From Cymodocea nodosa (lineage: Eukaryota > Streptophyta > Magnoliopsida > Alismatales > Cymodoceaceae): a DNA stretch of 64,000 bases. A program made the position numbers and the translations under genes. Where the stretch lies: assembly GCA_036874045.1 (NCBI GenBank), contig JAZBRI010000011.1, positions 3,906,001 through 3,970,000 on the forward strand. Reading direction: 5' to 3'. Under the pieces are notes generated by a model. The model made no database searches and was not told the origin of the DNA. It saw only the letters and a list, made by a program, of their open reading frames with translations. This document shows, in pieces, positions 26,848 through 54,271 of the stretch (the first letter of the stretch is position 1; each line of letters opens with the position of its first letter).

Positions 26848-27986
26848 TTAAGAACATGATTGAAAAGTAGGAACAAATGGAATAAATGTATCTGTCCAAG
26901 CAAACTTTTTAGGCATCGTTCTTCTTGCTATTAATTCTGTTTTCATGCAGTTCTTGTTTCTTCTTAATTTGTAAACGTATAATATATTATAAATTCCAAA
27001 TACAAGTGTATTATCATTAATGATATGAAATGTAGAAAGGGATCCTTTTTGGTTCCAAGGTAATGTAGCAACTTCTATTTCTACATCTATTTCAATATAC
27101 TTCTCTTCCCACTTCCATTCATTATTGTCTTCCATAATCCATATTTGAAATTTCATCAGTTCATCCCACCATCATATCGACATAAAGTAGGATCATCTTC
27201 TTCATTATACCACATTCCTATTTGAATTTTATTAAATTCTGCAGATGGTGGTTTAGCTATATCACTCGGTACAGGTAAAATTTCTATATATTCATCATAA
27301 CTGTCTATGCTCACTATGTATAAATCAAATCCAAATGCAATTGAAATATCTGTGACAAGATATATATATCCATCAAGTATGACATGTGTTTGGTTAATTA
27401 ATGATTTATGTCCTAGATATATCATAATATTTTCATTCCAAAATCTATTTAGAAAATTATACACACTTAAGCATAAATCTTCACCCCAATTTCCTGTAGG
27501 TCTTCAATAATATAATTTTTCAAGAATTGCAGAATTTTTATCAGAAAATATTAAAGCTGACCCATAATTTACAGTTGGTACTTCAAATCTATTAGGTCTT
27601 CCTATATTCCATTCTTCTCCTGTTATAGGATTTCTTATCAAAATATTAGGTAATAATAAACTTGCATACCTTGGTCTCGTCTTGTATATGATTAATCCTT
27701 CATCTATCCCCATAATATGATTTATTCCTTCTAATGCATTGGGTGGAATTCTAGTAGTTTCTTCCATAGCCAGATATTCATGATTAATTGAACTATGATT
27801 AAATGACCTCCATATGAATCCATCTCTAATCTTAGTCATTTTTGCAGCTTGTAGTCCCTGAAAATATTTTTCTTTAATACAGTTTTTAATTTCCTTTGAT
27901 ACACAACACAGCCTGCACAAATCTTTGGCTGACAAGTTACTTAGTACTTCCCTTAGTGCATCCAACGGTAATTGCATCAATTCCAT
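26848..27986 (-). pseudogene. F-box/F-box-associated protein carried by element C
   Basis: The minus-strand reading starts MELMQLPLDALREVLSNL with AKDLCRLCCVSKEIKNCI, a clear F-box (residues about 3-45), the part that binds SKP1 in SCF ubiquitin ligases. The rest resembles an F-box-associated region (NPITGEEWNIGRPN, DGYIYLVTDISIAFG, MKFQIWIMEDNNEWKW, FGIYNILYVYKLRR). A TGA replaces Trp at 27504-27506 (D has Trp), and one base is lost near 27157, after CRYD. The total is 1139 bases; adding the lost base gives 379 codons plus a stop. It lies between gag and the 3' LTR in the same orientation as the element. D carries the same ORF with different lesions, so it belonged to the element family rather than being a host gene hit by chance. 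Confidence 0.88.
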
Positions 27987-28054
27987 TTGTTGATTCTATA
28001 TAACACTAACAAAAATTTAGCAAAGACAAAAAATTAACATAACTACTGCACACC

Positions 28055-28115
28055 CTCGTGGAGTTAAGGAATAACTCAACGGACTAAGTTCGTTGAGTTA
28101 AGGACTAACTCTACG
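28055..28115 (-). repeat. Hairpin cluster between gag and F-box in C
   Basis: Two GAGTTA/TAACTC hairpins with outer GTT/AAC arms lie in the 191-base spacer between the two ORFs. D has the equivalent cluster at 54340-54400. Confidence 0.8.
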
Positions 28116-28177
28116 ATACTATTAACTAAAAAATAAAAACATATATACATACAGATAGTTGCTTCAGATATGCTGCT

Positions 28178-29526
28178 TCATTCAGCTATCCTCCCAGAAG
28201 AGGTATCAATTTCATTGACCGTTCTATTGATAGGATTAGGTATAGCTTGTATTGGCAATCCTCCAGTAGGTCTACCTTCCATTGGTTCCTTCTGTCTAAG
28301 TGGTATATTTCTATTCTGATTTTGAATTGCAGTACTTCCAAATACAAAATCTAGACGATTGTTTAATTGTTGGATTATCTTTTCTAATTTCTCTATTCTA
28401 GATCCTTGTTCCAGTAATGCTTCATAACTTATATTCTTCTCATTTATATTTTCTTCTCCTTGGAAATTGTTGTTTCTCCAAGATAAATTCGGGTGATTTC
28501 TCCAATTAGGATTATAAGAATTTCCCAAGTTATCTTTCTAGTTTCTAGCATAAATAATATCTAAATCATTTATGTTTTAGGATTATAAGAATTTCCCAAG
28601 TTATCTTTCTAGTTTCTAGCATAAATAATATCTAAATCATTTATGTTTGCATTCTTTTCTGCTAGCTTTTGATTTAATGATAACTCTTCTATTTTCTTTT
28701 TTAATTCATTTAATTTCACCTCAAGCATAGTATTTGAATCTATTTCATGCATTCCTCTTGGCAATATTTTTTTATCTGCAATAGCTTCAGCTGAATTTTC
28801 CCACTATGTAGTTCTTTTTGTAAAGTTTTCTAAATATGCCCGTGCTTCTTCACTACAAAGTTTCAGAAATCCATTTTGACAAGTAGATTCTAATAAAGAT
28901 TTCGTTGAAACATCTATGCCTTCATAAATTATACCTATTAATTGTGCTTTACTCATTGCATGATGTGGACATTGAGTCAATAAATCTTTAAATCTTTCAA
29001 AATATTTCCAAAATGATTCACCCTGCTTTTGGCTACACATTAAGATTTTTTTCTTCTTTTTAATCGTTTGATGTGTTGGATAATATTTTTCCAAAAATAT
29101 AGAGCAAAATTCAGTCCACGTAGAAATTGAATCAGGCAATAGAGTATATAACTATCTCTTAGCTGTGTCTTTTAAAGAAAAAAAGATATATCTAAGTTTA
29201 ATAGCATCTACACTCATGTTCGGTATTTTCATCATTTGACAAACTTCATTAAATTCTCTAAGGAAATAATAGGCATCCTCTCTTTCTAATCCATGAAAAT
29301 GTGGCAATTGACTAATATAATTAGATTTTAGTTCAAACCTATCTCCCTCAAAGTTTGATAATCGAATACATGAAGGTTTATCAATTAATTCCGGATATAG
29401 AATCTCTCCTAATGGTTTTTCTACTGGAACAGCCATCTCTACGTTCTCTTTGAAAGAAAGGTTAGCTACACCCCAAAGAATTTCGTTAAAGTTTAGTTCA
29501 GAAAATTTTTCAGTACTCCTCTGCAA
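28178..29526 (-). pseudogene. Capsid-type gag of C, located 3' of pol
   Basis: This is the Athila-type gag core: SCIRLSNFEGDRFELK, WTEFCSIFLEKYYPTHQT, ESFWKYFERFKDLLTQCPHH and IIYEGIDVSTKSLLES, then a coiled-coil stretch (LKKKIEELSLNQKLAEKN) and YNPNWRNHPNLSWRNNNF. In Athila gags as I remember them a CCHC zinc knuckle lies between those last two parts; here none is present. A 71-base tandem duplication at 28508-28649 breaks the frame. TAG stops lie at about 28805 and 29153. The unusual fact is its place after pol and ORFX. D has the same arrangement. Confidence 0.87.
28508..28649. repeat. 71-bp tandem duplication in C gag
   Basis: The unit starting AGGATTATAAGAATTTCC occurs twice head to tail (28508-28578 and 28579-28649). 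D has one copy. Since 71 is not a multiple of three, it shifts the gag frame. Confidence 0.92.
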
Positions 29527-29924
29527 TGAAAATTCCTAGGTAGGTGTTCTTACTAATCGCTTAGTGCTTAGAGAACAAGTCTATGTGCTCATAAATAAAT
29601 AGCAGAAGATTAATTACATACCAGCCAGAAGCTTTCCATTCAATAAATATTCGTTGTTGGATGAAGTTGAATCAGCTGCTTCTCCTTCCAGTTCCTCCAA
29701 CGCATTCTCCTTTCTTTTAAAAGTGCTGGTAACTCGTAAATAACATTCTGGTTTATATATATAATGTACATCCATAAAGTGAATAAATCTCATTGCAAGA
29801 ACGTGTCTTGTAACGTGCATCGTGGTTCCTATTTTTATGGGTACGTGTACCACTATTAATTTTAAATTTTGGTAACCACTAAACTGACGAAGTTTCGTTC
29901 CTGGTTAAAAGAACAACCATTTTG

Positions 29925-30105
29925 CTTAACCTCGTTAAGTTATAGATAACTCAACAGAACACAGTCGGTTACTATTGCTAACTCCACAGACTAACTACGT
30001 TGAGTCACAGATAACTCAACGGAGTGACCTTATATTATATTACTGACCTCGTGGAGTTACAGTTAACTCAACGGACTTACTTCATTGAGTTAACACTTAG
30101 CAACT
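29925..30105 (-). repeat. Hairpin cluster between ORFX and gag in C
   Basis: At least three GAGTTA..TAACTC hairpins, for example GAGTTA 30054-30059 with TAACTC 30064-30069, separated by AACGGACT-type words. The equivalent D cluster is at 56190-56440. The AT-rich 30105-30520 stretch to the left of it holds nothing else recognisable. Confidence 0.8.
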
Positions 30106-30522
30106 TCTAAGTTTACTTCTCGTATTAACTTCTCTGCTTTTTTTTTTTTTTCTGCTAATTGAAATAAAGTTAAATCTATGTCATTAATGCATCATTCTAA
30201 TCAAAATTCATTTAAATCTAAACATTATACAAATATTTAACTTACAGGTCATTTTATATTATGTAGAATTTAAATTTTACCTTGCAACATGTAGAAATTT
30301 TTAAGCATTTATCCTGTCATTCAGCAAATTGTAAATCTGTTACATATTCATTCATAAAGTTCCACAAATTATATAATATTCAATAAATTCCATTCATTTC
30401 ATATTCAAAACACGTATGAAAATTGCATCTAAAAAATTATATTCATTATTATGAATCAATTTACATTACAAATACATCATACAATTTCATACAATTTTAC
30501 ACAAGTAGACGAACAATACAAT

Positions 30523-32740
30523 TTAATCTCTATTCCTAAGTTCATCTACTTCCTTCTGAAGTTTTTCTAATTGAAGTTCTAATTGATTAATACTTTCTAC
30601 AACTCCTGTAAAGCCTCTAGAAGGAACAGCTATCTCTGCAGCTACAAAATTTTTGTATTCTTTCACTGAAATGGTTCTTGATCTGATCCTTTTTGATGTC
30701 TATTTAGTGAAATCGATACAGTCCTCCATCAGCAGTGGAATCAAATCTCCATAAAACAATTTTTTCTTGACTGTTTTCAGCTTGGAGATAAAAACTGCAG
30801 ACCAATTTATTTGAATTCTATTTACAACTGCATATGTGGCCCATTTGACAAATTGACTCAGTTCTATGTCATGACCCTGTCGTTGATAGACATTCTTAAT
30901 TAAAATGTTAGCTACCATGTGTGCTTTACCATTTAAATGCTTCAGTCTATTTAATAAAGGCACACCAGGATTGATAGCCAAACTATCCTTGATTTCTTGT
31001 TTTGTGCACTCGACGGCAGTTGTACTTTCCAAAATTTCCTATCCTTCATTCTTTAATCCAAAAATGTTGTGGAGAAGCTCTGATGTTATCTGTACATCAG
31101 CTTCCTCCACGTTGGAAATTAATTTTCCTTCTTCCTCTCTCAAATTTGCATAAAAATAGGGCACTAGATTCTCATACACTACATGCCCTCTTTCTTGAGA
31201 AATAAACTACAGTAGACATTGAAATTCAAATAGATCTTTTATTTCTTGCATTCCATCCCAATTTACTGGACTACTGTAAATAATATCGTAACCCCTTATT
31301 TCTTGATATTTGGTATAGGCTTCCTGACTACTAAAATGTACTTCATTCAAAATTGTTGTTTCAGTCGGGTCAGGAAGGTGACTTTGTTGTTCCAGAGGGA
31401 TTTGTACTTACTCTTCCTCTAACATAGGCTACATTTGAACATTCTCTACAGATTCCTGAATTTTTGCTTTTGCTTCTATCTGTGGTGATGAGCCGGCAGA
31501 ACTCTCCACTCTGTCTTGAATTCTTTCCATATATTGCTGAAGAGTTTCTTGCTCTTCAGTGGAATCTGTGAAATTATTTTTGTCCAAATGGCTTCTTTCA
31601 TTCTCTTCATTTTCTACCATTTCTTCTTCCTCCTGACTACCAATCTGTTATGTTACTTTTCTTTCTGATTCTGTAACAGATTGGGATGGAGTCCCGGGCA
31701 ATTCAGTTTCTGCCCTAATTTCTGTTTCTTCTTGTACAGGTTGCAGACTAATTTCAGCCTGATTTTCTTCTTTTCTTTGCTCCTACTGCTGCAGCTCCTC
31801 CTGCTCCTCCTTAGAATCGGATAGCAGGTTGATAAAAATTTGCTCCACAGGCCTTGTAAAAATTGGTACTTCAGATTTAATTTCCTCATTTTTAGGCATT
31901 TTTTCTTGTCCTTTCTTTTTTCTGATTAGTTGTGCCTGTTCTTCCTCTTCATCTTCTGAAATTAAATTTACATAAGTAGGCTCTGCAAGCCCTCAAGCCA
32001 CAGGTACTAGCTCTTCCTGTTTAACTTTTTTTATAATTGCTGGTCTCGAAGGACCAGCTTCGTCTCCTTTTGTAGTAGGTTTGGCAGTAGCTGCTGCCTG
32101 ATATTGTTCAACTTTTATTTTGTATTGGGCCCTTATCCTTTCTTCGACCCTTTTTCTCTTAATGGCATCATATATAATATGTGCCTTAGCCGTAGCTATT
32201 TCTTGAGTATCTCCTTAGTCTCTTGCTGTTTTGACCAAGCTAGTAAATTCTTTCTCTTCTTCTTCAATTCTTGGCCAAACAAATGCTAATCGTGGTAGAG
32301 GTTTTATTGGCTGAACTGGAGGTCTTGACTGCTGTTCCTCAGGAACAAGTCTTTCAACAATCGATTCTTCCTGCTCTCTTACTCGTTGCTGCTCCCATAT
32401 TGCCCAGCTTTCTCGACCATTAATGCGTTTCTTAAACCACAATCTAGCTTTACGTTGAATTAGCTCTAGGGCTACTTCATTGTTTGGCTGAATTTTTCTT
32501 TCCTTGCTAACTGCAATTTCAGTTGCCACTCTAATCTGTGTCTCCATTATCTATGGTATTTGTATTTCTAACTCAACTAAAACTTACCTCAAGTTAAAGA
32601 GTTCTGATTCTACTTGTTGTAGCTCTTTCTCTCTTGTTGTATTTCTGATCTTCTATCGCGTGTGCCATTCTTCAGATTCCTTCAGGAACTGTGCGGTGTC
32701 CACTACATCTTCCCAGAATTCAGGTGTCATTTTCCTCATT
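30523..32740 (-). pseudogene. ORFX of C: accessory ORF between pol and gag
   Basis: The reading opens near 32740 (MRKMTPEFWEDVVDTAQFL). A basic N-terminal part (WFKKRINGRESWAIWEQQ), a long Gln/Glu/Pro-rich middle and a folded C-terminal domain follow. That domain reads YDIIYSSPVNWDGM, LVPYFYANLREEEG, LLHNIFGLKNEG, HMVANILIKNVYQRQGHDIE, WATYAVVNRIQINWSAVF and KKKLFYGDLIPLLM, then a heptad-like tail (LELQLEKLQKEVDEL). This resembles what databases call a putative plant transposon protein domain (from memory). Function is unknown. TAG stops and at least one frameshift kill it. Homologues lie at 56901-58482 (D) and, more diverged, 46078-48681 (A). Confidence 0.8.
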
Positions 32741-32914
32741 GTGGAGTTACACAACAGCACAAAATCGCTCTGATTTCTACTGTTATAGATTCTAAATGAT
32801 TTTCCAGATAATGCCCCCAAAACCCTAGGTTTTAGATAAATAAGTCCTAAGTTTAGGTAGGTAATCGGGTCATTTCCCGAACCAACTATTACTATTTTAT
32901 CTGCGGTCTTAGCT

Positions 32915-33020
32915 ATAGTACTCCGTTGAGTTATAGTTAACTCAACGGAATAAGCTCGTTGACTAACTCAAGACTCAACGGAGTAAGCTCGTTGAGTTAA
33001 GCGTAACTCAACGGACTCTC
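32915..33020 (-). repeat. Hairpin cluster between pol and ORFX in C
   Basis: It includes a perfect hairpin: TCCGTTGAGTTA (32922-32933), loop TAGT, TAACTCAACGGA (32938-32949). A second, related one follows at about 32978-33016. The cluster sits in the 540-base gap between pol and ORFX. Confidence 0.9.
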
Positions 33021-33284
33021 CGTACAAACAAATATAATAATAAAAATAATATAGATAATAGTTTTTCTGATTAACTTTTTTTTTTTTCTCTCGGTTTAAC
33101 CGATACTATGTTTCGGTCAGACCTAATTTTTTCAAAAATTAATATACATATTTTTTATGTTCTGGTCATACCGATGGATCCGGTCGATTGAACCGTAATG
33201 ATTTTTATATTATATATATATATGTATATATTTTTAATGTATGTTTTTTTTTTTTAAAATTGAAACATAAAAACTGATTTCTTA

Positions 33285-36200
33285 CTAAGTAAAGCTCAAG
33301 CAATCCTCTACTCTGACTTCTTCTATAATTCCAAAGGAGCTTTTTGGTGTTTTCAGAATAGGTCTAAGTCTTTGTCCATTTACTTTAAATATATTTTGAT
33401 TTTTAGGATTTCAATTTCAATAACTCCATAAGGATAAATATTTCGAACCATGTAAGGTTCTCCCCATCTAGATCTTAATTTTCCTAGATGGTTATGGAGT
33501 CTAGCCATATAAAGATATACTTCTTGTCCTATTTCAAAGCATTTTGGAATAATTTTTCTATCATGCCAGAATTTAATTTTCTCTTTTTCTCTTACAGTCT
33601 TTGAATAAGCTTCATTTCTAAATTCTTCTAATTCAATTAGTTGCATTTTTCTATTTTCAATAGCTTAATTTAAATTAGTTTTCAGAGTTTTTAATGCCTA
33701 ATAAGCTTTATGTTCAATTTCAGCAGGTAAATGATAACTTTTTCCATATACTAGCCTAAAAGGTGACATACCTAAGCTTGTTTTATAAGTAGTTCTATAA
33801 GCCTAAAATGCATCTATCAATCTATTATCCCAATCTGTTCTAGTAGGATTTACTACTTTTTCTAAGATTAACTTAATTTGTTTGTTTGCACTTTCTACTT
33901 GTCCACTTGTTTGCGGATGATATGATGTTGCAATTTTGTGGTTTACTCCATATTTCTTCATTAAGACTTCAAAACTTCTATTACAGAAATGAATTCCTCT
34001 ATCACTAATAATAGCTTTAGGTATTCCAAATCTGGCAAATATATTTGTTCTTATAAATTGTATTACACTTTGTTATCATTAGTTTTTGTATGAATAGCTT
34101 CTATCCATTTAGATACATAATCCACCCCCAACAATATGTAATTAAATTGATTAGACATAGGAAATTGACCCATAAAATCTATTCCGCACACATCAAAGAT
34201 TTCAACCTCAACAATAGGATTAAGAGGCATCATATTCCTCTTTGATATTCTTCCTATTTGTTGACATATTAAACAACTTAAGCAATATTTATGAGCATCT
34301 TTGAATAGTGTTGGCCAATAAAACCCACATTGCAGAATTTTTGCAGCAGTTTTCCTTGAACCAAAATGCCCTCCACAAGCTTGGTCATGACAAAAAGACA
34401 ATATGCTCGGATATTCAGTTTCTGGAACACACCTCCTTAAAACCAGATCAGGACATTTCTTAAATAAGTATGAGTCTTCCCAATAGTAATATTTTACTCT
34501 TGAGAAAAACAATTTCTTATCCTGTCTATTCCAATCCTTAGGTGTTACAATAGTAACTAAGTAATTAACTATGTTTGCATACCAAGGCATTGTGTTGATG
34601 GTCATTAATTGTTCATCAAGAAAATTATCCTTAATTTCAATATTTGATTTTTCTATTTGTAATCTTGATAAATGATCTGCTACTACATTCTCACACCCTT
34701 TTTTATCTTTAATTTCTAGATCAAATTCTTGTAATAATAATATCCATCGGATCAATCTAGGTTTAGTCTTTTTTTTCTTTATTAGATGTTTTAAAGCTGA
34801 ATGATCCGTGTATACTATCACTTTAGCTCCAATCAGATATGATCTAAACTTTTCTAAGGCAAACACAACAGCTTATAATTCTTTTTCAGTAGTTGTGTAA
34901 TTAACTTGAGCATTATTTAAGGTTTTGCTTGCATAATGAATCACTCTAGGAGATTTTTCTATTTTATGTCTTAACACTGCTCCTACAGCAAAATCAGAAG
35001 CATCGCACATTAATTCAAATGGATGGTTCCAATCAGTTGTTTGAATTATAGGAATTGAAATTAAGCTACTCTTAAGTCTGAAAAATGCTTCCTTGCAATT
35101 TTTATCAAAGTTAAATGGGACATCTTTTAATAGATTAGTTAAAGGTCTAGCTATTTTGCTAAAGTCTTTAATAAATCTTCTATAAAAACCAGCATGTCCT
35201 AGAAATGATCTAATATCTTTTACTGATTTAGGTTCTGGTAGATTAGAAATTACTTCTATTTTAGCTTTATCTACTTCCAACCCTTTCTTAGAAACAACAT
35301 GCCCTAAGACTATTCCTTGTTTAACCATGAAGTGACATTTTTCCCAATTTAAAACCAGATTTTTTTTCCACATAGCGTTTTAATATTTGGTCTAAATTAC
35401 TTAAACAAACTTCATATGTGTTGCCATATACAGTAAAATCATCCATAAATATTTCTAAGAAATCTTCAGTCATTCCAATAAATATGCCCTGCATACACCT
35501 TTGAAAGGTAGCTAGTGCATTGCATAATCCGAATGACATTCTCTTAAAAGCATAAGTTTCATTAGGACAGGTGAACGTTGTTTTCTCTTGATCCTCTAAT
35601 GCTACTGGAATTTGATTATAACCTGAATACCCATCTAGGAAATAAAAATATTCTTGCCCTGCTAATCTTTCCAACATTTGATCTATAAAAGGTAAGGGAA
35701 AATGATTTTTCCTAGTCACAGCATTCAGCTTTCTATAGTCTATACATACTCTCCAGCTTGATTGAATTCTAGTAGGTATCAAGTCTTGACTTTCCTTCCT
35801 AATAACTGTTAATCCTGATTTCTTGGGAACTACATGGATTAGACTAACCCACGAGCTATTAGAAATCAAATAAATTATGTCATTATCTAACCATTTCACT
35901 ATTTCCTTCTTCACTACTTCTTTAAGGTTTGGATTTAATCTCCTCTTAGGAATTCTAACAGGTTTAGCATTCTCTTCTAAATATATGTGGTGACAGCATA
36001 AAGTTGAGCTTAACCCTTTTATATCAGTCATAGTCCATCCTATTGCTTCTTTATAACTCTTTACTACATCTTTTAATTTAGCTATTTGATCCTCTTTTAA
36101 ATATGAAGCAATAATGATTGGATAGGTTCGTTTATCTTCCAGAAATATATAGGTTAATTCAGGAGGTAAATGTTTTAATTCTAAATGCTGCCCATTAGAA

Positions 36201-37930
36201 GCTAGAGCTCCTAATTGAACATCATCATTTTTTAAATTACTTTCTTCCAGATCTCCTTCTATATTTATGCTTTCACTTTCCTCTAAAGTTTCAGAATTGA
36301 TTTGCCTATTTAATTCTTCTTGAATCACATCATCTAACATATCTCCTTCGTCCTCTAAAAAGTCTATGGTATGTAAGGACATTTCTAATTCCTCAAACCT
36401 TTCTGGTTTGAAAATATTTAATTGAGTATCCTCATTACCATATACTAGCTTCATTACTCTAGTTTTACAATTTATAACAGCCCCTGATGTTGCTAAAAAT
36501 GGCTTTCCCAAAATTAAAGATGTATCATTATTTTTATGCTTAATTTGTTGGGAATCCACAATTACAATATCAATAGGATATATAAAGTTTTTGATTTTAA
36601 TTAAGACATCCTCTATTTTTCCTCTAGGGTATCTTTTACTTCTATCAGCTAATTGAATAACCGTACTAGTAGGAGTTAAGCCTTCTAATCCTAAGGATGC
36701 AAATATATCACTTGGCATAACATTTATACCTACACCTAAGTCTATTAAGGTTCTTTCTAGAATGGTATTTCCTATGGTGCATGATATAACAGAGATTCCA
36801 GGATCAGATAACTTTTTAGGAATTTGTGGCAGAAATAGGGAACTACTTTGCTCAGCTAAAAAGACATTTCTAAGAGCTTTTCGCTTTCTTTTCTTGGTAC
36901 ACCAATCCTTCAAAAATTTAGCACAAGGTGGCATTTTCTGCAATAGATCTAACAAAGGAATGTTAACTTGTACTTTTTCAAAAATTTCTCTGATTTTTTC
37001 TGGTTTTTTAGGTATTGTTTGTTGTAATCTTTTAGGATAAGGTGCTAAAGATTTTGATTTCAAAGATTCTTTTTCTTTCATTTGATTAGTTTGATCCTTT
37101 TTAGCTTCATTAGCAGATTCAGATTGTTCTTCAGTGATTTCTAGATTTTCAGCTATTACATTTTCATTATCATTTTGATTTTTACTCTTATCCACCTTCA
37201 TATCATTTTCATTTTGAGTTCTTGGTGGTATATCAGTTCCAGATCTTAATGTTACACATACATCTTCCAGATTTTCATTACTCTTATGATGTTTTTGTAT
37301 ATAATTTTCGTAATTATGATCTTCAATTGTTTTTATTTTTAAAGTGCATTCTTTAAATTTTCTTGCATTAATATTTTCTTTTGGTTGTGTATTTTGCAAA
37401 TTATGCAGGTTTATAACATTATAATTTTCATTGTCCTGTTGCATAACTTGTATTTCCATTGTATATTCGTCCAATGCTTTTAATTTTCTTTCCAGATCAT
37501 TTAATTTCATTGCACTCAATTTTTGATCAATTTTCATTATGGTTTTTTCAGTTTCTTAAATTATATCCTTTTTAGGTTTTGAATATGCTTCCTTATAGTT
37601 TAATTGGTTGACTTCTTGTTGCTGACACATAAAGTATTCCAGTTTGTTAAGGTTTTGCTCTATACTATGCTCTAGTTTGTCATACCTATCCCAAACTTTC
37701 GTGTCTCTCAACATATTACACATTCTATACTAACCATCAGTTGGGTAAACTATAGGATTCTCATACTCGACTCTATCATATTGAGGATAATTCATTTGTT
37801 GTTCATGGGATCTACCCATCTGTAAACGTCTCAGTTTCAAATAGTCAGAAATGTCATGTCCTTCAGAATTGCAGAATTCACAAATGCTAATTATAGGTTT
37901 CAGAAATCTTTGAGCATAAGCATATGCCAT
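33285..37930 (-). pseudogene. C pol polyprotein (zinc motif-PR-RT-RH-IN), Athila-like
   Basis: The ATG at 37930 starts MAYAYAQRFL, soon followed by CEFCNSEGHDISDYL, a CCHC-like finger whose last Cys is replaced. Protease: TLIDLGVGINVMPSDIF. RT: VCIDYRKLNAVTRKNHFPLP, FFLDGYSGYNQI-type block, FMDDFTVYG intact. RNase [24 protein letters not shown]. Integrase: [15 protein letters not shown] with CLSCLIC, then D in [10 protein letters not shown] in ISDRGIHF, E in GQVESANKQ, and the C-terminal VNGQRLRP. A stretch of 738 codons (35321-37537) is open. Lesions are TAG near 37729, TAA near 37550, a frameshift near 35345, a stop near 34870 and several in integrase. No capsid precedes it, which is unusual. 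Confidence 0.92.
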
Positions 37931-38046
37931 ATTCTCAATTACAGAAGAAAACACACAACTCTTTGGCTATTAAAACAAAACAACTCTAACAGTTGCTTAT
38001 ATTAATTCAATTCAATTCAATTTAATTCAATTGAATTTAATTCAAT

Positions 38047-38064
38047 TCCCCGGCAACGGCGCCA
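38047..38064 (-). other. Primer binding site of C, tRNA-Asp type
   Basis: On the minus strand the sequence TGGCGCCGTTGCCGGGGA lies seven bases inside the 5' LTR. It is complementary to the 3' end of plant tRNA-Asp(GUC) including CCA, a primer used by Athila and related gypsy elements. Confidence 0.9.
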
Positions 38065-38071
38065 TAAAACT

Positions 38072-40322
38072 TGTTTGCGTTTTCCCAGCACTACACCAGA
38101 AAAACTTGGATTTGTTACTTCTATTTTTACTTAGTTAATTTATCTTTATGCCTATTCCTTGTTTTAGAAGTAAATAAACAACCTTTAATACAATTTAGAT
38201 ATTAATTCCAATTTGTACTTTAACTGCAAGTGCACAGTGTCTATTGTATTAGTGTGCAAGTACAGGTCGATCCCACGGGGAATTGCTTAAAAGTTCAGAA
38301 CTGTCCATTTGTTAATAATCAAATTTATATATTCAATAAGCTCTCTATTGAATTACAGTTAACTCAATAGATAAAGTTCGTTGAGTTATGGCTAACTCGA
38401 CGGACTAACCTCGTGGACTAAAGTTAACTCCACAAGCCTGTCTTTTCTTTTTAATACTATTATTTACAGATGAATTTGGCCAACCATTGGGCGATTCCAC
38501 AGATTGTAAATAACATTAATTAAGCTCTTTAATGTTAGTAAACATTGGATTTATCATTAAACAATACTAACATTCAGATAATTCAAACAGTAACCATTAA
38601 AATCTTTAAGTCTTTTGAACGAACCAATTTCAGTAAACTATAAAACTAAAACAAACATAAAACAATCACACACTAACAAAGATAACATTAATCACAATAC
38701 AACACAAACAATACAACACTCAAATACAACCTACAAACATAGATAAATTGTTTTTGGTATTTTTGTTTTAATATGAACATGGAATGGGGCGAAAGGTGAA
38801 ATGTAAAGTAATCTCACTCGACAGTAAATACTTCTGACACTACTTGCAACGCGATTACACCACTGAAAATTAAACCACTTACAATTCTGTCTCCTCTCCC
38901 TATAGAATCGCGAGTCCAGAATTGCAAGATAATCTTCTCTTCGGCATATAGGCATCAACCCGAAGCCAAGGCTAAAAGCTTTACGATCTCCTGAAATATG
39001 AGTCAACGCTTGGTGGAAATGGCTTCCCTTCCCGCGATGCGATCACTCCTCATAGTTGTTGTCAAGCATTGTGTTTGGCTCGGAATCGACTTGACATCAA
39101 GAAAGTATTCTCACAGACCTCCGATGGTTGGTGATTACGGTGGATATGGTGGTGGTAACGATGGTTGGTATGATAGTTCGGAGAATCGCCGATACTGTCT
39201 GTAGAAAGCTTGGTGCTCCTCCTCTGTATACACTGCCCGTCCATCGATCACACATTGGATTTCTTTTTATTCTTTTCTTTTATATTTCTTTAGTAGTGAT
39301 TTCTTCTGCTTGAATGATCGGTTGGATTTCCTTCATTCATATCAACGATGATGATTTCTTCTTCCTGCGCAATACATGCAATTGTGGTTTTTCTTCCAAC
39401 TGTCTTGTTTTTGCAACCGCTATAGTGGTATATTAGAAAATAAATAGTCTGTGGAGTTACAGATAACTCAACGGACTTTCTTCGTTGATTTAACTATAAA
39501 ACACGAGCATAAATTTAACTATCCGATGCTCAGGTGCATTTCGGATACTTATAAACTTAATTATCCGATGCTCAGATGCATTTTGGATAGTTATAAACTT
39601 AACTATCCGATGCTCAGATGCATTTCGGATAGTTACAGCTAACTCACCAATATATAACTTAAGTAAATCTACCAGATCTCGACACATGTCAACGGTAGTT
39701 TAATAATAAAATACCCATTTCGGAGAGTTACAGGTCTAACTATCCGATGTTCAGATGCATTTTAGATAGTTACAGCTAACTCACTTAAAATCCACTTAAG
39801 TCACTTTACCAGAACATGACACGTGTCCATAGCTATTTTATAAAATAAAAAGAGATTTCGGAGGGTTACAAGTATAACTATCCGTTGCCCAGCTACAATT
39901 TCAGATAGTTAGAGATGACTCACTGAAAGTTTACTTAAGTCATGCATTATGGTTTCGACATGTGTACTTCTAGAAATAATAAAATATTCTTTCAAAACAT
40001 AACTGTTCGACAATATAAACATAACTATCCAACATATTCAATCTGTTAAACATAACTATCTGAAATATATTCGGTATGTTAAACATAACTGTCCGAAATA
40101 TCAGAAAATTCGGAAACTTAAGAATTTCACAGCCTGCAACTTACCGATAGTTCAGAAATGTACTAAATTGACATTAATTCCTCAAAATTAAACAAATTCT
40201 TCAATTAAAGCATATAATAGTGCAATTATAACATAATGGCTTAATTGTCATATGATAAGCTAAATATTATGCAATTAACCATCATTTAACCGTTAATAAT
40301 ATGCACTTTTTCATTCTAAACA
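38072..40322 (-). repeat. 5' LTR of C
   Basis: The LTR is 2251 bp, TG..CA, full length. From its right (U3) end it carries words of the type ACTTAAGTCA followed by ACACGTGT (39790-39830), three 42-bp tandem units (39517-39642) and GTTGAGTTA hairpins (38345-38440, 39450-39490). It pairs with 24114-25306 and with the split D LTR. Confidence 0.92.
39517..39642. repeat. Three 42-bp tandem hairpin units in C LTR
   Basis: Units at 39517-39558, 39559-39600 and 39601-39642 each begin AACTATCCGATGCTCAG and contain the inverse arm TCGGATAGTT. Each unit can therefore fold as a hairpin. As 42 is a multiple of three, the repeat also makes a meaningless periodic ORF. Confidence 0.92.
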
Positions 40323-41916
40323 AGCTGCAATGAAAGATTCAGAAGCTGGTCTTTGGATGTATGCTATAGAGGAGGAACTCCAATCTCTCCATAAGAACAA
40401 GACTTGGGAACTAGTGAAACGTCCAAAGAACACAAATATTGTTGGTTGCAAATGAGTCTATAAGAAGAAGATTGGGACTCAAGGCAACGCAGGTGTGCAG
40501 CACAAGGCAAGATTAGTCACCAAAGGTTATTCACAGTGAGAAGGAGTTGACTTCAATGAGGTATTTGCTCTTGTTGTATGTCATACATCTATTAGAATTT
40601 TGTTATCCATTGCTTCAGCACAGAATTTAGAATTGGAACAACTAGATATAAAGATGGCCTTCTTGCATGGTGAGTTGGAAGAAAATATTTGGATGGAACA
40701 ACCAACAAGGTTTGTGGTGAAAGGTAAATCTGATTGGGTGTGCAAATTAAATAAGTCCTTGTGTGGACTTAAACAGTCACCACGCCAATGGTACAAAAGG
40801 TTTGATGCCTTTATAGTTAAAGTTGGTTTTAGACGCAGCAACTATGATTCATGTGTATATGTTAAAACTCTTGATAAGAGTACACATGTTTATTTGTTAT
40901 TGTATGTTGATGATATTCTTATAGCTATGAAGAATATCGAAGTGATATAGGAGTTGAAGGACACATTAAAATCAGAATTTGATATGAAGGATCTTGGTCC
41001 AGCTAGCAGAATTCTTGGAATGGAGATTAGTCGTGAAAGAAATTCTGGTAAGCTGTTTTTGAATCAATAGAAGTATATTGAGAAAATCCTTAGCAGATTT
41101 GGTATGGCTTCATGCAAAGCCATTAGCACGCCTTTTGACAGAAATGTCAAATTGTCATCTGCGATGTGTCCACAAACTGATTTTGAAAAGCTTGATATGC
41201 AGCAAGTTTCTTATGCATAGGCAGTTGGAAGTCCTATGTATGCTATGGTATGCACTAGGCCTAATCTGGCATATCCTTTGAGTGTTGTTAGTAGGTTCAT
41301 GTCCAATCCGGGCAGGGAACATTGGAAAGTAGTTAAAATGATATTCAGATATTTGAAAGGAACTCCAAGTGTTGGCTTGATGTATGCAGCAGATTAGGGT
41401 TGTACTATGGCTGGTTATACAGACTCAGACTATGTAGGTGATGTTGACAGAAGGAGATCATTATCTAGTTATGTCTTTACATTTGCAGGTTCTATTGTGA
41501 GTTGGAAATCAACTCTTCAGCCTACGGTATCTCTGTCCACAACTGAGGCTGAATATGTGGCTATGACAGAAGCTGCAAAGGAAGGGATTTGGTTGAAAGG
41601 CTTACTTGGAGACTTTGGTTGGCACATTGATAAAGCTGATATCTTCTATGTTAAGTATCAAAGATAATGCCTTTTATGATAGAACTAAACATATTGATGT
41701 TAAGTATTACTTCCTCAGGAATGAAGATAGGATAAAGATTATGAAGGTCAACACAAAGGACAATCCGACTGATATGTTTACAAAGGGCGTTGTTAAAAGC
41801 AAGTTCAAGCATTGCTTGGACTTACTCAACGTCTATTGCTGCTACTGACCCAAGTTGGGTCTTGGTGATCCATCACCTGTTCATGGTGAAGATTGATGAA
41901 AGACAAGGTGGAGATT

Positions 41917-46077: not shown

Positions 46078-48681
46078 ATGTTAGGACGTGGAAGAGGACG
46101 TGGTAGAATGACAAAAGTGCAGAAAAGAGAGCTGGAAATTTAGAAAATACAAAGTGAAATCAACGAAATCTACTCTAGGTACACTTTTTCAAACGATGTA
46201 CTACACAAAATAAGAAAACCTATTCAAGATGAGAAAAATTTCTATTGGAAATTTATTCGAAATTATGCTGAAACACAGTTTAGACTAAAACAGACTGAAC
46301 TTTCCGCATTGCATTTATGGAAAAGAAATTTACAACCTAACCCTATGGTTGTAAGTTCTGGACATGTACCAGAGACATCCGTACAGTCTATCACCTACTA
46401 TGGAAAGAAGTGGGGACCAATGAACGAAAATGCAAACAAGGAATTACAATCCTTGTATTCCCAACATTATTTTCCCCCAACTGTTTTAGATGACATTCAA
46501 TAGTACACAAATGAATAGAAAACTGCCATTAGCAAAATGGGCTTTCGAAGTGAAGGACAAAGAGTTTATCAACTCAAAATGGCAGAGGTGGAGAGCTTAA
46601 AACTCTATATTCCATTATTACCACCTAGGCATCATGGTGAAGGACCATCAAGACCCCAGGTGCCTTTAATAGGAGAAATTAAGACAATTTTAGAACCTCC
46701 TGAACAACTTGAAACACTGCAGACATATAGTTGGAAAAAGAAAAAGACAATTGAATATTTTGGACTAACTACAAGTGTACAAGGAATATTGCAGCAAAAA
46801 GAAGAATCAGTGAAAAATGGAAAACTATGCTCCATTGCAGAAGCTAGACAGACATTTATGTCAGGAATCCTAGCAGATGTGAACAATATTGGATTACAAG
46901 CATACACTCTAAGGTATTGTGTCACATTAGTGCATAATGTATCTTTTAATACAATGGAGAGTTTTTCACATCATACTACAAGCACACATTCTTTTCCTAC
47001 GGAAAAAAGCATGTAGGAAATTTTGATGATACATATACAGATGATATCTAATTTGATGATATTTTGATGACATAGACACTAAGTCTATGAATTTTGAAGA
47101 TATTTCATCTGAAGAGGAATGTACAGATATTCTTCCTCTTACTGTATCTCGAATAGAGACTTTTGAATTTTGGTACAGTTGCTTATACTACACTTTCTAT
47201 ATATGGTTATGTTTGTTACAATATATCGTATACTTGTTGATAAATGTATATAATCAACAACATACATAGTTACAAATAGAATATGATACTACCAATGTCT
47301 CACATATACAAATTTTAGAAATACAAGATGATTCTATTCCATAGACAGATATAGAACATTCTTTCGTACAGAGACAGTTGTATAAATCAAATATAGATAT
47401 ACATGTTGCTGATATACAGATTATTACAAAGACTGTTGCTAATGAATTATTTCCAGAAGAACACATACAAGAATTTCAGCAGATTATTAATACAACAATA
47501 CCAGATACTTCAGACATTTATAATAGTTTTGATGGCAATTGCACCAGTTCTGAAAGATCTGCAAATTTAGATGCTGCTGGTAATTTGAAACAAGTCCTAT
47601 TTCAGAACATCATGATAGGAAAATACCTAATCCTGAACAGAGTTTAGATGAAAATACACTATTATGGTTCAAAAATAATTCCTGTTATGACAAATTTCAG
47701 ACATATAAAACTTTTACAGTTTTATATTCAAGACCAGTTAAGTTTGAAAGGATGGCACACATACGAGAACTATTTGACTTTCAAGGCTTGTTGACTCTAC
47801 TTCCACAATAGCTAGGCCATCTTGCTATACCCAAACTTATTAGTTGTTTTTACTCAAACTTAATAGTGGAAGAAGGTATTCCTGTTTCTAATATACAAGA
47901 CAATGACATATATTTAACTCCCGATTTACTTCATCTGGTACTTGGTTTGAAAAATGAAGGAGTTAAATTATCAGAAAGAAAACAGGTTTATCGATTGGGA
48001 TGAGACATTACAAGTTTAGCCAAAGATCCAACTACCAACAAACCATTGACAATACTAAATGACTTAAATGGCCAAGCACGTTTTATTGCAAAAATATTGC
48101 ATGTTACATTGTTTCAGAGGTTTGGTCATGGGGCAGAAGTTGACAGATGTTGTCTTTATGCTACATATGCATTAATAAACCATATATAGGTGAACTGGTA
48201 TGATATTTTTGTTTCTCATATCTTACATTTGCAGAGTAAATTATTTTATGGCGATACAATTTTGAGAATTGTGGTAAGTCAAACAGATATTACACCTTTG
48301 CCACAGAAAAGATTAAAGTCAAGATCTTTCTCTGCAAAGAAACTCCAAAAATACTAGGAAGTAGATACACTTGTCTTCAGACAACAACAACAACAGGATC
48401 GGCAAACATAGTCACAGCAGCAATAGCAACAATCCACACAATTTACAGAAACATAGCAACATACAGATATACATACAAATATACAACAAGGTATACATAC
48501 AAAAATACATACAGGTATAGATACAGACATACATACTGAATTTTTACAGCAACCATCACACGTTTCTCAAAATGATTTAGATCAAGCATTACTTGATCAG
48601 ATAAACAGAGTTAGTAAAGAAATTGCAAAGAAAATTTCAGATACTCTAATTGATATTTTTCGAAGACAAAGAGGCTTGTGA
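46078..48681 (+). pseudogene. ORFX homologue of Sirevirus A
   Basis: The ATG at 46078 starts MLGRGRGRGRMTKVQKRELE. The region spans 2604 bases with two compensating frame changes (about 47020-47080 and 47600-47645). Middle part: an acidic stretch (FEDISSEEECTDILP) and a hydrophobic segment of about 27 residues at 47168-47251 that could cross a membrane. The C-terminal domain reads VLYSRPVKFERMAHIRELFDF, LISCFYSNLIVEEG, LLHLVLGLKNEGVKL, NGQARFIAKILHVTLFQRFGHG, TYALINH, VNWYDIFVSHIL and SKLFYGDTILRIV, block by block like ORFX of C and D. A Gln-rich tail with IHT repeats follows. Stops are mostly TAG at Gln positions. Sireviruses often have an extra ORF here, usually called env-like; the function of this one is unknown. 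Confidence 0.8.
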
Positions 48682-49005: not shown

Positions 49006-50224
49006 TGTTAGGTATTTAATTTTGATGATATATGCTTTATTAACACTTTTAAATAAGTCTACATAATATTCTCTAAGTATATTTCTCTAAGTATAATAGT
49101 TAACAGATTATCAGAAAGTTTCATTTTTATGTCAGATAAATTAAAGATTTCCAAAGAGTTAGATTTGCAATAGTTAAACTTTCAGATAGTTAACGTTTCA
49201 TTTTTGTCGAATAGTTTATGTTAAAAACTCGTATAGTTAAGTTATCTACATGTGTGTTTTTAATGTTTTAAGTTGTCACGTGTTTTCCATGTGCGTTCGG
49301 TAATGAAAATTGAATAGTTAGATAACTGTTCGAATTTTTATATGCATAGATAGATAACTGCTCGAGTTTTATAAAAGGACTAACGAACAGATAAATTTCT
49401 CTTTAGTCACGTGTTTTGCAGGTGCAAAAACTCAAAGAGTTAAAGGATAAATGTACGAGTTTTTATAGGACTTAAATGATAAGTGTTCGACTAAATCGAA
49501 GACTTAGAAGATATTCTACAAGACTCCAGGAAGATAAAGTTTCAGTGAATCTACAAAGTGGAGATCGTGGAAATTCAAAATGTTAGTGGAGAAAGTGGAA
49601 ATTCAAATAGAAAGTAATTTGGATTAAAGAAAAAATTAGTACGTGGATTATGGATTATGGATTGTGGATTAAGTGGATGAACACACTGAACGTGAAAGAC
49701 AATAGAGTTCGACTACTAATAGAGAGTACGAGCTACATTACAACAAAAGATCCCAATCTCAAAAACCAAGTCGGAATATTCAATTTGGATCCCTAACTGA
49801 AAAGTTAAGTTTGAATATTCATATTCTGAAAAATTCTCCAACATCAGAAGAAGTTTGAAATTCCAAGCAATTTCAGAAAAGGAGCTGCAAAGGTAAGAAG
49901 TCTGGAAATTCGACAACTGGAGAAGAAGAGATATAGAAGCTGAGTAAAGAGAAAGAAAGAAGTTGTGTGCATAAAGATCAGGTTTTATACAATTCAAAAT
50001 TAGTTTTGAATAAGAGCTTTGTTTTTCTATTTTAATTGTATATCGAACATTACTGTATCAAAACCTTTAAGAAGGGAATTGAGTTGAAAAGATATTGTAA
50101 ATTCTATTTTTAAATAAAGAATAGAATTTCATTTACGAGTGTTTTGTGCTCTTGTTTTATTTGCTAGTATTTAATTATTAAAGACACAATTCACCCCCCC
50201 TCTTGTGATACAAACGATCCTACA
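49006..50224 (+). repeat. 3' LTR of A
   Basis: Starts TGTTAGGTATTTAATTTTGA and ends CGATCCTACA. It matches the 5' LTR throughout with scattered, mostly transition differences and small indels, followed by target duplicate TCTAT. Confidence 0.93.
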
Positions 50225-50229
50225 TCTAT

Positions 50230-51330
50230 TGACAGAAAAAACTTTCGTCACTACATGCAATGTGATTACACCACTGAAAACTTAATCACTTACAATCTTG
50301 CCTCTTGTCCCTATAGAATCGTGAATCAAGAATTGTAAGATGATCTCCTCTTTAGCATACTGACATCAACCTAAAACCAAGGCTAGAAGCTTTACGATCT
50401 CTTGAGATATGAGTCGGTGCTTGGTGAAAATGACTTCCCTTCCCGCAACATGATCACTCCTCACAGTAGTTGTCAGTCACCATGTTTGGCTCAGAATCGA
50501 CCTAACACCAAGAAAGTATCCTCACAGACCTCCGATGGTTGGTGATTTTGGTGGTGGTGTGGAGCTTCAGTGAACTTCTGACGCTTCCTGTAGTTAGTGT
50601 GGTTCTCCATCTCTGCACACACACTTTCTTCGTCTTTCTCCTCTTCTTTTATATTTCTTTCAGTAGTAACTACTTCTACTTAATTGATCGGTTGGATTTT
50701 CTTCATTGATATCAATGTTGGTGATTTCATCTTCATTTCATGAGTGAATTCCTACGTGATACGTGTAATCGTGGTTTTCCTTCGAATGTCCTGTTTCTGC
50801 AACTACTACAGTGGCATATTAGAAAATAAATGGTTCGTGGAGTTATAGATAACTCAATAGACTTACTTCGTTGATTTAACCATAAAACACGTGCAATAAA
50901 GAAATAACTAGTTCAGATGTTTTAGATACTTACAAACCTTAACTATCCGATGCTTAGATACATTTCAGATAGTTAACAGATAACTTATCGAAAATTCACT
51001 TAAGTCATGCATTAATGTTTCAACACGTGTACTCCAGGCAATAATAAAATATTCTTTAAGCATTTAAAATATAATTATTTAGTACATAAAATATAACTCT
51101 CTAATGTAACAAAAAATTCGGATACTTAGGAATTTCAAAGCCTGTAATTCACCGATAGTTCAAAAATATACTTAATTAACGTTAATTCCCTGAAATTATG
51201 TAGATTCTTTCATTAAAGCATATAATAGTGCAATTATAACATAATGGCTTAATTCTCATATGATAAGCTAAATATTATGGAATTAACCATCATTTAACAG
51301 TTAATATTATGCACTTTTTCATTCTAAACA
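50230..51330 (-). repeat. D 3' LTR, right part
   Basis: Continues the LTR broken at 16398. It is collinear with 38811-40322 in C but lacks two of the three 42-bp units and ends ATTCTAAACA. The minus-strand polypurine tract AGTATGGGGGAAG lies just inside (about 51331-51343). Confidence 0.88.
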
Positions 51331-53132
51331 CTTCCCCCATACTTAAATTTTACTTGTCCCTTAGCAAACTAAGATCTAACTAGTTGGTCTTTCTAAAGTG
51401 CTAGAATTAATTCTTCATTTTGTTCTTCTTCAGAATACATAAATTAGACTACTATATAGATATTTTGTATTTTTAAGTAATCTATTTTAACATTGTTTTC
51501 TCCTCTTCAACTTGCAAATATATTTAAAACATTTGTAAATTACATACAAAATATAATAGCATTACACAGGTAGTAATTATATTATTATTTTTTTCTTCTT
51601 TTAAACATCTATTATCTTGAATTTTCCAATATGATTTCCAGAATTAATTTCAACTACATATGAATCAAAACACAATCCAACTCAATATAATTAAAACAAG
51701 TAGAATAATGAATTGTATCTCAAATAAACAACTTCAAAAGTATATTCTAGATTCATACTTCAATAATCTTAGATAACAAAAAATATACTTGATTCAAAAG
51801 ATATCTGTATTTCCCAAAACACTTTTATCTTTTCAGAACAATATATGCATATTTGTACTTTAAAAGTTAATTTGAAAAGCTTGAATCATATAAGAGCTTT
51901 CTAGTGTACCCATGTATCGAGCTTTCAGTCAACAATCCCAGATCTGATTAGGATCTTAGGTTGTCAGATTTAAAGAGTCATTTTTCAGGTCAACAATCTT
52001 AACATACCTATCTACTCAAGTACAAAAGGCTCGTGATCAAACAAGTCAATAAACTCTCAAAGTTTTTCTCTCTTTTTTTCTTTTTTTTTTCTTTTCAACA
52101 TAGTATATATATGCATTTCATTAATATAGATGTAATAAAACACAAATTTTGTATAGTCCTGCTTCTATTATTTACTAAAAATATGAATCCATATCAATAA
52201 GCTCATACTTTTTCTGTAGTTTAATAAGATTTACACATAAATCATTCTACAAGTTTAATCAATCAAATTAAATGTATCCTTGATCATATGTATTTCATTT
52301 AATCCAAAAATCAACATTTTAGCTCTTTCAGGATTTCAGATAATTTATTGAGTTTCAGTTAAGTATTTTGATTTCTTTTTAAAATCGTGAAATTGTTAAA
52401 TTCATAAAATTCAACAAAAACATAGGATACTATATCTAGATTTGTATTAATAGTAAAATTTTGTAGCATCTTATATATAAGATTCTAACATTCAAGCAGT
52501 TATAGTTCTTAAAAATTTGACAATCTCAATTATCGGATAGTTACAGCAAATTCATAAAAAATTTTTTCAATTTCCACAGAACTTTTGCAGCACCATTCTG
52601 ATTCCTATAATTAACAAAATTACTTGGCTTTTAATCTAATTACCTCCCCCCCATACCTACATTTTACATTGTCCTCAATATAAAAGATTTTACAGTAAAT
52701 ACAGTAAATGTTAGCAGGTATGAATATTATTTCATTGACTTAGCTCCTAACTCAATGAACTTAATTCGTTGAGTTAATGAATAATTCCACAAACTAAGTT
52801 TAAATATAAATTCAGGATAAGTAATCAATTACATACCTTGTTCTTTTGTATCTCCTTCAATATCTTTCAATTTTTGATTTAGAAAAACTTTTCATTTACA
52901 AATAAAAGTAGAATATATAACAAAATAACAACTTAACAACAAAACATAAATTGTTAATTCAGTGTCTTGTGTGGAACCCAGACTCCTATGCCTTTAGTAG
53001 CTCACAAGTAAGCCAGTTGGTTTCCCAGAACAGATACCAACAAATTGGATTGATATTTTGTTTTTCTTTCCTTTTTCTTTTTCTAAAAATAAATGCAGAA
53101 TACACACAACATTAAAAGTACAAAATCACAAT
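51331..53132 (-). other. D 3' non-coding region
   Basis: Collinear with 25307-26847 in C. It also holds a hairpin cluster at about 52740-52800 (TAACTCAATG, GTTGAGTTA) that is missing from C. No ORF is supported. Confidence 0.75.
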
Positions 53133-54271
53133 TTAAGAACATGATTGAAAAGTAGTAACAAATGGAATAAACGTGTCAGTCTAAGCAAACTTTTTAGGCA
53201 TAATTCTTTTTGCTATTATTTCTGTTTTAATGTAGTCTACTTTCCTTTTTAACTTGTAAACTTGCAGTATGTTATCAATACTAAATATAAGTGTATTTCC
53301 ATTAATGAAATGAAATGTAGAAAGGGATCCTTTTTGTTCCAAGATAATGTAGCGATTTCTATTTCTACATCTATTTCAATATATTCCTCTTCCCACTTCC
53401 ATTCATTTAGGTCTTTCATAATACATATTTGAAATTTCATTAGTTCCTCCCACCATCTAATCAAATATAAAGTAAGATCATCATATTCGTTATACCACAT
53501 TCCTAATTGAATTTTATCATATTCTGTAGACGGTGGTTTAGCTATATCACTTGGTATAGGTAATATTTCTATAAAGTCATCATCATAATTATCTATGCAT
53601 ACTATGCATAAATCAGATCTAATTGCAACTAATATATTTGTGACTAGATATATATATCCATCAAGTATGATATGTATGTTGTTAATTATTACTTTTTGTC
53701 CTAGATATATCATAGTATTTTCAGTCTAAGATCTATTTAGAAAATTATACACACTTAAGCATAAATCTTCATCCCAATTTCCAGTTGGTCTCCAATAATA
53801 CAATTTTTTAGGAATGGTCAAATTTTTATCAGAAAATGTTAAAGCTGACCCATAATTTTTAGTTGGTACTTCAAATCTATTAGGCCTTCCTATATTCCAT
53901 TCTTCTCTAGTGATAGGATTTTTAATCAAAATATCGGGTAACAGAATTGCATACATTGGTTTGGTTCTATAAATAATTAATCCTTCATCCATCCCCATAA
54001 TATGATCTATTCCTTCTAATGTATTGGGTGGAATTCCAACAATTTCTTCCATATTTAGATATTCATAGCTGATTGAACTACGATTAAATGACTTCCATAA
54101 AAATCCATATCTAATCTTAGTCATTTTTGCAGCTTGTAGTTCATGAAAATATTTTTCTCTAACACATTCTTTAATTTCTTTTGATACACAACACAATCTA
54201 CCTAGATCTTTTGCTGATAGGTTACTTAGTACTTCCCTCAGTGCATCTAGTGGTAATTTCATCAATTCCAT
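53133..54271 (-). pseudogene. F-box/F-box-associated protein carried by element D
   Basis: Homologue of the C copy at 26848-27986: MELMKLPLDALREVLSNL, AKDLGRLCCVSKEIKECV (F-box), then NPITREEWNIGRPN, WRPTGNWDEDLC, DGYIYLVTNILVA, and MKFQICIMKDLNEWKW. Its lesions differ from those in C: a TAG after FLNRS near 53725, and one base missing near 53338 in a T-run that is one G shorter than C. Length is 1139 bases, again one short of 380 codons. At the C copy's two lesion sites D is intact, and at D's two sites C is intact. The common ancestor therefore had a complete ORF. Confidence 0.88.

Follow-up and report, generated by a model that had tools for sequence, protein, structure and literature searches.

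A high-copy, Athila-like Ty3/gypsy retrotransposon family of Cymodocea nodosa with an F-box gene between gag and the 3′ long terminal repeat

The window analysed here is a stretch of 64,000 nucleotides of Cymodocea nodosa DNA (assembly GCA_036874045.1, contig JAZBRI010000011.1, positions 3,906,001 to 3,970,000), and it holds two members, C and D, of a Ty3/gypsy retrotransposon family that carries an F-box gene. In nearly all copies examined this gene occupies a fixed place, past gag and before the 3′ long terminal repeat (LTR). It has spread along with the element, and purifying selection has preserved its coding sequence. It is a real trait of the family, and a role as adaptor to the host SKP1–cullin–F-box (SCF) ubiquitin ligase is the best reading of the domains that it is predicted to encode. 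We consider it probable that this high-copy, Athila-like family carries the F-box/F-box-associated (FBA) gene as a conserved accessory part whose product serves as a substrate adaptor to the host SCF. The genes of the family are ordered LTR, primer binding site (PBS), a polyprotein without capsid, an extra open reading frame (ORF-A), gag, F-box and 3′ LTR; that the capsid gene lies downstream of pol had been overlooked in the first-pass annotation of the window, which had drawn attention to the F-box ORFs.

RESULTS

The F-box/FBA gene in elements C and D

26848–27986, minus strand: F-box/FBA gene of C, ORF from 27986 down to 26848, 1139 bp; PF00646; interrupted by stops and a frameshift
53133–54271, minus strand: F-box/FBA gene of D, ORF from 54271 down to 53133, 1139 bp; PF00646; interrupted by stops and a frameshift

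The first-pass annotation had described two same-strand ORFs, each with a standard F-box and an F-box-associated-like tail and each lying between gag and the 3′ LTR. Both ORFs were recovered where it had placed them, on the minus strand and beginning MELM.LPLDALREVLSNLSAKDL, and in both the F-box scored well above the PF00646 cut-off (E 3.2e-11 in C, 2.7e-10 in D). With gag directly upstream of the F-box in each element, and with gag, F-box, polypurine tract (PPT) and LTR start following one another in D, the placement stands. The tail is a more qualified case: its matches in the copies of the window are marginal (PF08268, E 0.35; TIGR01640, E 0.13), but it is clear in an open family copy of 379 codons (L017), which passes the PF00646 cut-off and matches TIGR01640 over residues 114–335 (E 1.3e-8, 34.5 bits; curated cut-off 37.9). 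When the genome was scanned with the FBA model TIGR01640, 38 of the 145 listed rows were above the cut-off, and the four best places were a deep relative (L083, rank 1) and three places with the family F-box (ranks 2–4, 85–86 % identical to D). The premature stops and the frameshift lie at different places in C and D, so that an unbroken ancestor is likely. A chance ORF was ruled out by the PF00646 matches and the number of genomic places given below.

F-box proteins bring targets to SCF ubiquitin ligases, those of the F-box/FBA type joining SKP1 through the F-box and binding the target with the remainder; judged by its domains, the protein predicted here is likely to be an SCF adaptor. A search of solved structures with the F-box protein gave nothing convincing, the weak matches being Ta1207 and F-box only protein 4. 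No viral contig and no prokaryote contig with F-box and gag was found, and inspection of the 3′ noncoding region for a further gene revealed none.

Distribution in the genome and linkage with gag

The genome searched was the window's own assembly (374.6 Mb in 28 contigs; one genome), and the query was the first 181 amino acids of the D F-box protein, with 5400 first-look candidates. At least 150 places on many contigs matched this piece, and all of those listed, except D itself, did so at 85–92 % identity to D. Of the 30 top F-box loci (one being D), 29 were immediately preceded on the same strand by 3′ gag sequence, which extended over at least 780 bp in 26 of them and over 52–244 bp in L013, L019 and L036; the exception is L016. 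In the reverse test, with 20 top gag loci that again included D, the F-box followed gag in 19 and was missing only from L045; in both tests the loci fetched were the best-scoring ones and no random sample. Distances between copies in the F-box and in gag were correlated (r 0.58, 26 copies, reached in 0 of 2000 permutations) and remained so without C and D (0.40, 24 copies, 0 of 2000), so that the two genes travel together. The first-pass view of the F-box as a family component, and not a single chance capture, is thus borne out: many further places hold the ORF, nearly all examined family members carry it next to gag, and C and D are set apart by three nested target duplications and are not copies of one duplicated segment.

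In the deep relative L083 (region of G000:C7:17066786) an integrase tail (35 %, E 3e-5) is followed by the F-box and then by gag, and ORF-A gave no match there. Its protein identity to the family is 34–40 % in the F-box and up to 61 % in gag, and six other places, among the matches listed, resemble it at 61–85 % identity. From the order and divergence of this one fetched locus, the F-box gene seems to be old in the lineage and to have shifted its place. The gag region of L083 also contains a CCHC zinc knuckle.

Selection on the F-box gene

Comparison of C and D over 372 F-box codons gave a nonsynonymous distance (dN) of 0.118, a synonymous distance (dS) of 0.311 and a dN/dS of 0.38 (bootstrap 95 % interval 0.25–0.56); the ratio was 0.17 in the gag core and 0.10 in ORF-A. 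The Nei–Gojobori (NG86) estimate is, however, biased: in wrong-frame controls the F-box gave 0.50 and 0.87 and the gag core 0.43 and 1.26, and the true effect is therefore smaller than the raw ratio. In view of these controls, neutral change was simulated on the same codons, and at three values of kappa the mean dN/dS was 0.77–0.96, with 0 of 1000 runs at each value as low as that observed. Premature stops numbered four, compared with 11–13 expected from the simulation, and the third-position share was 0.42 (simulated, 0.31–0.32). Indels were fewer in the F-box (4 in 1135 bp) than in the 3′ noncoding region (18 in 1522 bp; p 0.029), as were frameshifting indels (2 and 13, respectively; p 0.033).

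Across the family, F-box dN/dS fell from 0.41 to 0.30 as distance rose (34 sequences, 561 pairs; first 930 nt of the D frame only), and gag showed a like trend, from 0.53 to 0.27 (28 sequences, 378 pairs). The F-box set excluded L002, L004, L005, L007 and L008, in which the match was shorter than 1000 bp, and L009, which is D itself. The earlier suggestion that the F-box had served the element fits purifying selection, both between C and D and family-wide.

Taken alone, C and D point to extra constraint on the F-box domain (p 0.014). By region, the ratio of nonsynonymous to synonymous proportions (pN/pS) was 0.20 in codons 1–48 and 0.32–0.53 in the rest; since pS was higher in codons 1–48 (0.292 vs 0.132–0.174) and pN similar (0.058 vs 0.054–0.076), the low ratio speaks only weakly for such constraint. 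For the same reason, the idea of the F-box domain as the part that varies least was dropped. In ORF-A (30700–31425 in C against its D counterpart) dS was about 1.0, far above the 0.24–0.31 of gag and F-box, and C and D may thus be recombination mosaics.

Structure of element C and gene order of the family

24114–40322, minus strand: element C, Ty3/gypsy, from LTR to LTR, delimited by LTR ends and target duplications
38072–40322, minus strand: 5′ LTR, starting TGTTTAGAATG
38047–38064, minus strand: PBS, TGGCGCCGTTGCCGGGGA
33380–37966, minus strand: polyprotein without capsid match, broken; protease (weak), reverse transcriptase (RT), RNase H, integrase
32921–33379, minus strand: integrase/ORF-A spacer, palindromic repeats at 32922–33015
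30528–32920, minus strand: ORF-A, broken; weak PF20167 (Transposase_32) match, E 1.2e-5, 25.7 bits, curated cut-off 45
29536–30527, minus strand: ORF-A/gag spacer, palindromic repeats at 29948–30091
28178–29535, minus strand: gag (capsid), broken; PF03732, E 3.3e-16, above cut-off
27987–28177, minus strand: gag/F-box spacer, palindromes at 28061–28111
24114–25297, minus strand: 3′ LTR, its 5′ part deleted along with the PPT

The extents first assigned to the elements needed correction: C runs from 24114 to 40322, and the visible internal part of D from 51331 to 58482, with gag downstream of pol. C is flanked by a 5-bp target duplication, AGCTG on the plus strand, at 24109–24113 and 40323–40327; joining its flanks yields a single copia frame that reads through the junction, with stops further downstream. 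Its LTRs differ by a Kimura distance of 0.066 over 1184 sites. The polyprotein begins about 120 bp past the PBS, which we take to be of the tRNA-Asp type, and matches RVT_1, RT_RNaseH and Integrase_H2C2 above the Pfam cut-offs, rve just below and Asp_protease_2 well below. In most respects the element is that of a Ty3/gypsy retrotransposon, with LTRs of the form TG...CA, a PBS and 5-bp target duplication (in C), a PPT (in D only) and integrase after RT and RNase H, but gag does not precede pol: in C it lies past the integrase, at 29535–28178.

This order recurs in the family. All 12 top polyprotein-start loci (one being C) are preceded by a C-type LTR and show no gag match in the 1.5 kb to each side, and a PBS with at most two mismatches was present in nine of the 12, C again among them. 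Ten of 12 integrase-anchored loci, C included, run into ORF-A, the misses being L061 and L066. The distance from integrase to gag was 4.67–4.75 kb in five of six hand-matched pairs and 5.84 kb in the sixth; these pairs come from part of the coordinate rows and are evidence that the order is repeated but not of its frequency, for which the locus counts are the fairer measure.

Two further features of C are a perfect 71-bp tandem duplication within gag (28506–28648) and tandem repeats of 42, 137 and 33 bp in the 5′ LTR (39509–40101).

Palindromic repeats in the spacers

32922–33015, 29948–30091, 28061–28111, 56209–56435, 54347–54397 and 52737–52787: internal palindromes of LTR type, the last lying after the D F-box
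24386–24446, 25232–25275, 38361–38404 and 39448–39491: LTR palindromes

A palindrome, TCCGTTGAGTTA-n-TAACTCAACGGA, recurs in the LTRs and in the spacers between integrase and ORF-A (seen in C), ORF-A and gag, and gag and F-box (in both elements). With at most two mismatches allowed, the half-site of this motif, which was selected after being seen, occurs 25 times in 2987 bp of spacer, as against twice in 13482 bp of coding sequence and twice in 3457 bp of other noncoding internal sequence; the two coding occurrences are in the ORF-A of C, and there are none in pol, gag or F-box coding sequence. Folded as RNA and compared with shuffled sequence, four of the five gene spacers formed stronger hairpins (z −2.9 to −6.9), while the D gag/F-box spacer gave z −0.3; the stretch after the D F-box gave z −5.6 and two LTR stretches z −3.7 and −1.6. 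The CCGTTG core of the palindrome resembles MYB sites. The spacer repeats may indicate that the 3′ genes are expressed separately, or they may be traces of how cassettes were joined.

Element D and the nesting of the window

56904–58482, minus strand: D ORF-A, truncated at 58482 by another LTR; PF20167, E 0.0036, below curated cut-off
54494–55780, minus strand: D gag, broken; PF03732, E 2.6e-4 on piece 54782–55270, below curated cut-off
54272–54493, minus strand: D gag/F-box spacer, palindromes at 54347–54397
51331–51344, minus strand: D PPT
50230–51330, minus strand: first part of D 3′ LTR, LTR start at 51330
15681–16398, minus strand: last part of D 3′ LTR, on the far side of copia F; outer end approximate
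16399–50224, plus strand: copia F, inserted in the D 3′ LTR with target duplication TCTAT; holds copia G and C
20783–42284, plus strand: copia G, inserted in copia F with target duplication AACTC; holds C

The gag protein of D is 86.8 % and 75.4 % identical to that of C over two stretches. C lies within copia G, copia G within copia F and copia F within the 3′ LTR of D, each insertion with its own 5-bp target duplication; C therefore arrived after D and is no duplicate of it. By nesting F is older than G, an order that their LTR distances (Kimura; F 0.062, G 0.082) do not reflect.

At 58483–59444, within the ORF-A of D, there is an LTR of the same family on the opposite (plus) strand, with no PPT before it; the rest of its element was not recognized in the window. 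Copia F contains, at 47596–48354 (plus strand), shortly before its 3′ LTR, a homologue of ORF-A (36 % over 268 amino acids, E 2e-44), so that the same extra ORF is found in both superfamilies. Elsewhere in the window are a U-box/ARM gene resembling U-box protein 9 (7800–9197, plus strand), whose best named matches are monocots (Spirodela, 61 %), and a pair of inverted repeats (13196–14170 and 59485–60419; 73 % identity).

DISCUSSION

Our current working model is that the F-box of the encoded protein would dock on host SKP1 while the FBA part binds a target, so that the host SCF ubiquitin ligase would receive a substrate adaptor encoded by the element itself. The target might be a host factor that limits the element, with the silencing machinery as a candidate, or else a product of the element, Gag or the polyprotein. 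The F-box gene, ORF-A and gag are probably expressed together from the element's 3′ half, by means of internal promoters or of splicing. More tentatively, and with somewhat more doubt than confidence, we suggest that this gypsy lineage has been rebuilt as cassettes, the capsid having shifted to a place behind pol in a group with ORF-A and a ubiquitin-ligase adaptor. The spacer palindromes would then act as an internal promoter or an RNA signal, allowing the structural and host-manipulating proteins to be made separately from the enzymes, and the F-box protein would be turned against host control. Signs of selection dating from the expansion of the family suggest that the F-box gene does something for the element, and a capsid behind pol breaks a rule by which such elements are classified and filtered.

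Several results weigh against a functional adaptor, in addition to the wrong-frame controls and the raised pS of codons 1–48 described above. Both window copies of the gene are broken, and an open frame of at least 378 amino acids without a stop in the match was present in only 10 of the 150 best rows. The FBA score of L017 falls short of its curated cut-off, and a genome search with Pfam FBA_3 gave no match, its control giving none either. AlphaFold, run on an alignment of two rows, returned a mean pLDDT of 31.8 and no usable fold. A protein database search with the F-box protein yielded nothing at E 0.001 (629 candidates) or at E 10 (6118 candidates); that search finds only relatives sharing common exact five-residue words, and plants are present in the database, as a U-box query showed.

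It is unlikely that the gene is a passenger, a host F-box gene caught once by a successful element and copied along without function. Captures of this sort have been described in plant LTR elements (PMC7264820, PMC3726574), at least in the parts of those reports that bear on them, and most copies here are broken; however, a passenger would not be expected to show purifying selection between subfamilies or fewer frameshifting indels than neighbouring noncoding DNA, and the gene is present in a relative (L083) whose F-box is so divergent. Retention for the use of the host, with the selection acting on host copies that seeded elements, is more improbable still: F-box genes form a large host family and one locus, L005, resembles an ordinary host F-box gene, yet the copies compared are dispersed and lie beside gag, and the best matches of the L083 F-box past its own clade are only 33–38 % identical, several of them, among the matches listed, being element copies by their coordinates. 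No donor host gene was found in the protein database searches or among the genome matches listed, because element copies fill those matches.

Self-regulation, in which the F-box protein would turn over Gag or the polyprotein and so limit copy number or time particle assembly, with no attack on host defence, is a possibility to which we give some credence while doubting it. The F-box adjoins gag in nearly all copies examined and the distances of the two genes are correlated, but adjacency may mean co-transcription only and correlation is expected from shared descent. A segmental duplication of which C and D would be the two copies, the F-box being a local accident, can be regarded as refuted. 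The two elements are on the same strand and 79–83 % identical over about 7 kb; nevertheless, C sits within two copia elements within D, each of the three insertions has a target duplication of its own, a copia frame runs open through the joined flanks of C, and the gene matches at least 150 places on many contigs.

The PBS of Athila elements is of the tRNA-Asp type, presumably the same type as in the family here. From its domains and structure the family appears Athila-like, sharing with that clade (OTA, Ty3/gypsy; PMC6317226, in the sections describing it) the order of RT, RNase H and integrase, a 5-bp target duplication, long LTRs and extra ORFs, as well as, in the pieces scanned with Pfam, an integrase tail without chromodomain match and no match to a second, archaeal-type RNase H. 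It departs from Athila in three respects: the capsid gene follows pol, the polyprotein lacks a capsid and begins about 120 bp past the PBS, and there is an F-box/FBA gene. Athila ORF-1 (PF03078) was not matched by ORF-A, which matched PF20167 instead, below the curated cut-off; ORF-1 is reported in 16 % of Athila elements and is no strict criterion (PMC6317226, same sections). According to its account of filtering, that survey (Neumann et al., 2019; PMC6317226) dropped elements with odd domain order or repeated domains as likely mispredictions, so a family such as this could have been missed. An exact-phrase literature search for gag behind pol, a weak search, found no paper, and a full-text literature search, judged on titles and the starts of abstracts and with subscription journals mostly outside it, found no LTR family reported to have an F-box gene among its components.

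Extra ORFs are common in plant LTR elements. In Ogre/Tat elements an extra ORF stands upstream of gag and the block precedes pol; the present family likewise has an extra ORF (ORF-A) before gag, but here the block follows pol. Polerovirus P0 is a viral F-box protein that removes AGO1, and thus, as here, an F-box protein encoded by a genetic parasite, although the protein of the present family has a tail of FBA type. Any function of extra ORFs in plant LTR elements has been doubted in the survey cited above (PMC6317226, in the passage on such ORFs); since the extra ORF described here is recognizable, present in nearly all examined copies and marked by selection, the idea of a retrotransposon-borne ubiquitin-ligase adaptor is directly testable.

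Comparable associations are known from other mobile elements. Nematode F-box genes are likewise associated with mobile elements, but in that case it was the F-box genes that acquired a DNA-binding domain of Tc1/mariner origin or were carried by Helitrons, and the word "gag" is absent from the main text of that report (PMC12062965). A screen of 121 angiosperm genomes listed 15 extra domains, with "F-box" absent from its main text (PMC9289625); the orchid Ty3/gypsy elements described there, which carry an m6A demethylase of AlkB type, are alike as a gypsy family retaining an extra host-type domain over rounds of replication, and unlike in that their domain is a 2-ODD and not an F-box. Gene-capturing LTR elements, such as maize Bs1 (PMC7264820) and the F-box family 'LTR-gene' of Thlaspi (PMC8764390), also have a host gene in or beside an LTR element. 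The relevant parts of those reports, however, regard such captures as duplicates of host genes, whereas in the family described here, with no fewer than 150 matching places, one gene recurs in a fixed position and shows selection.

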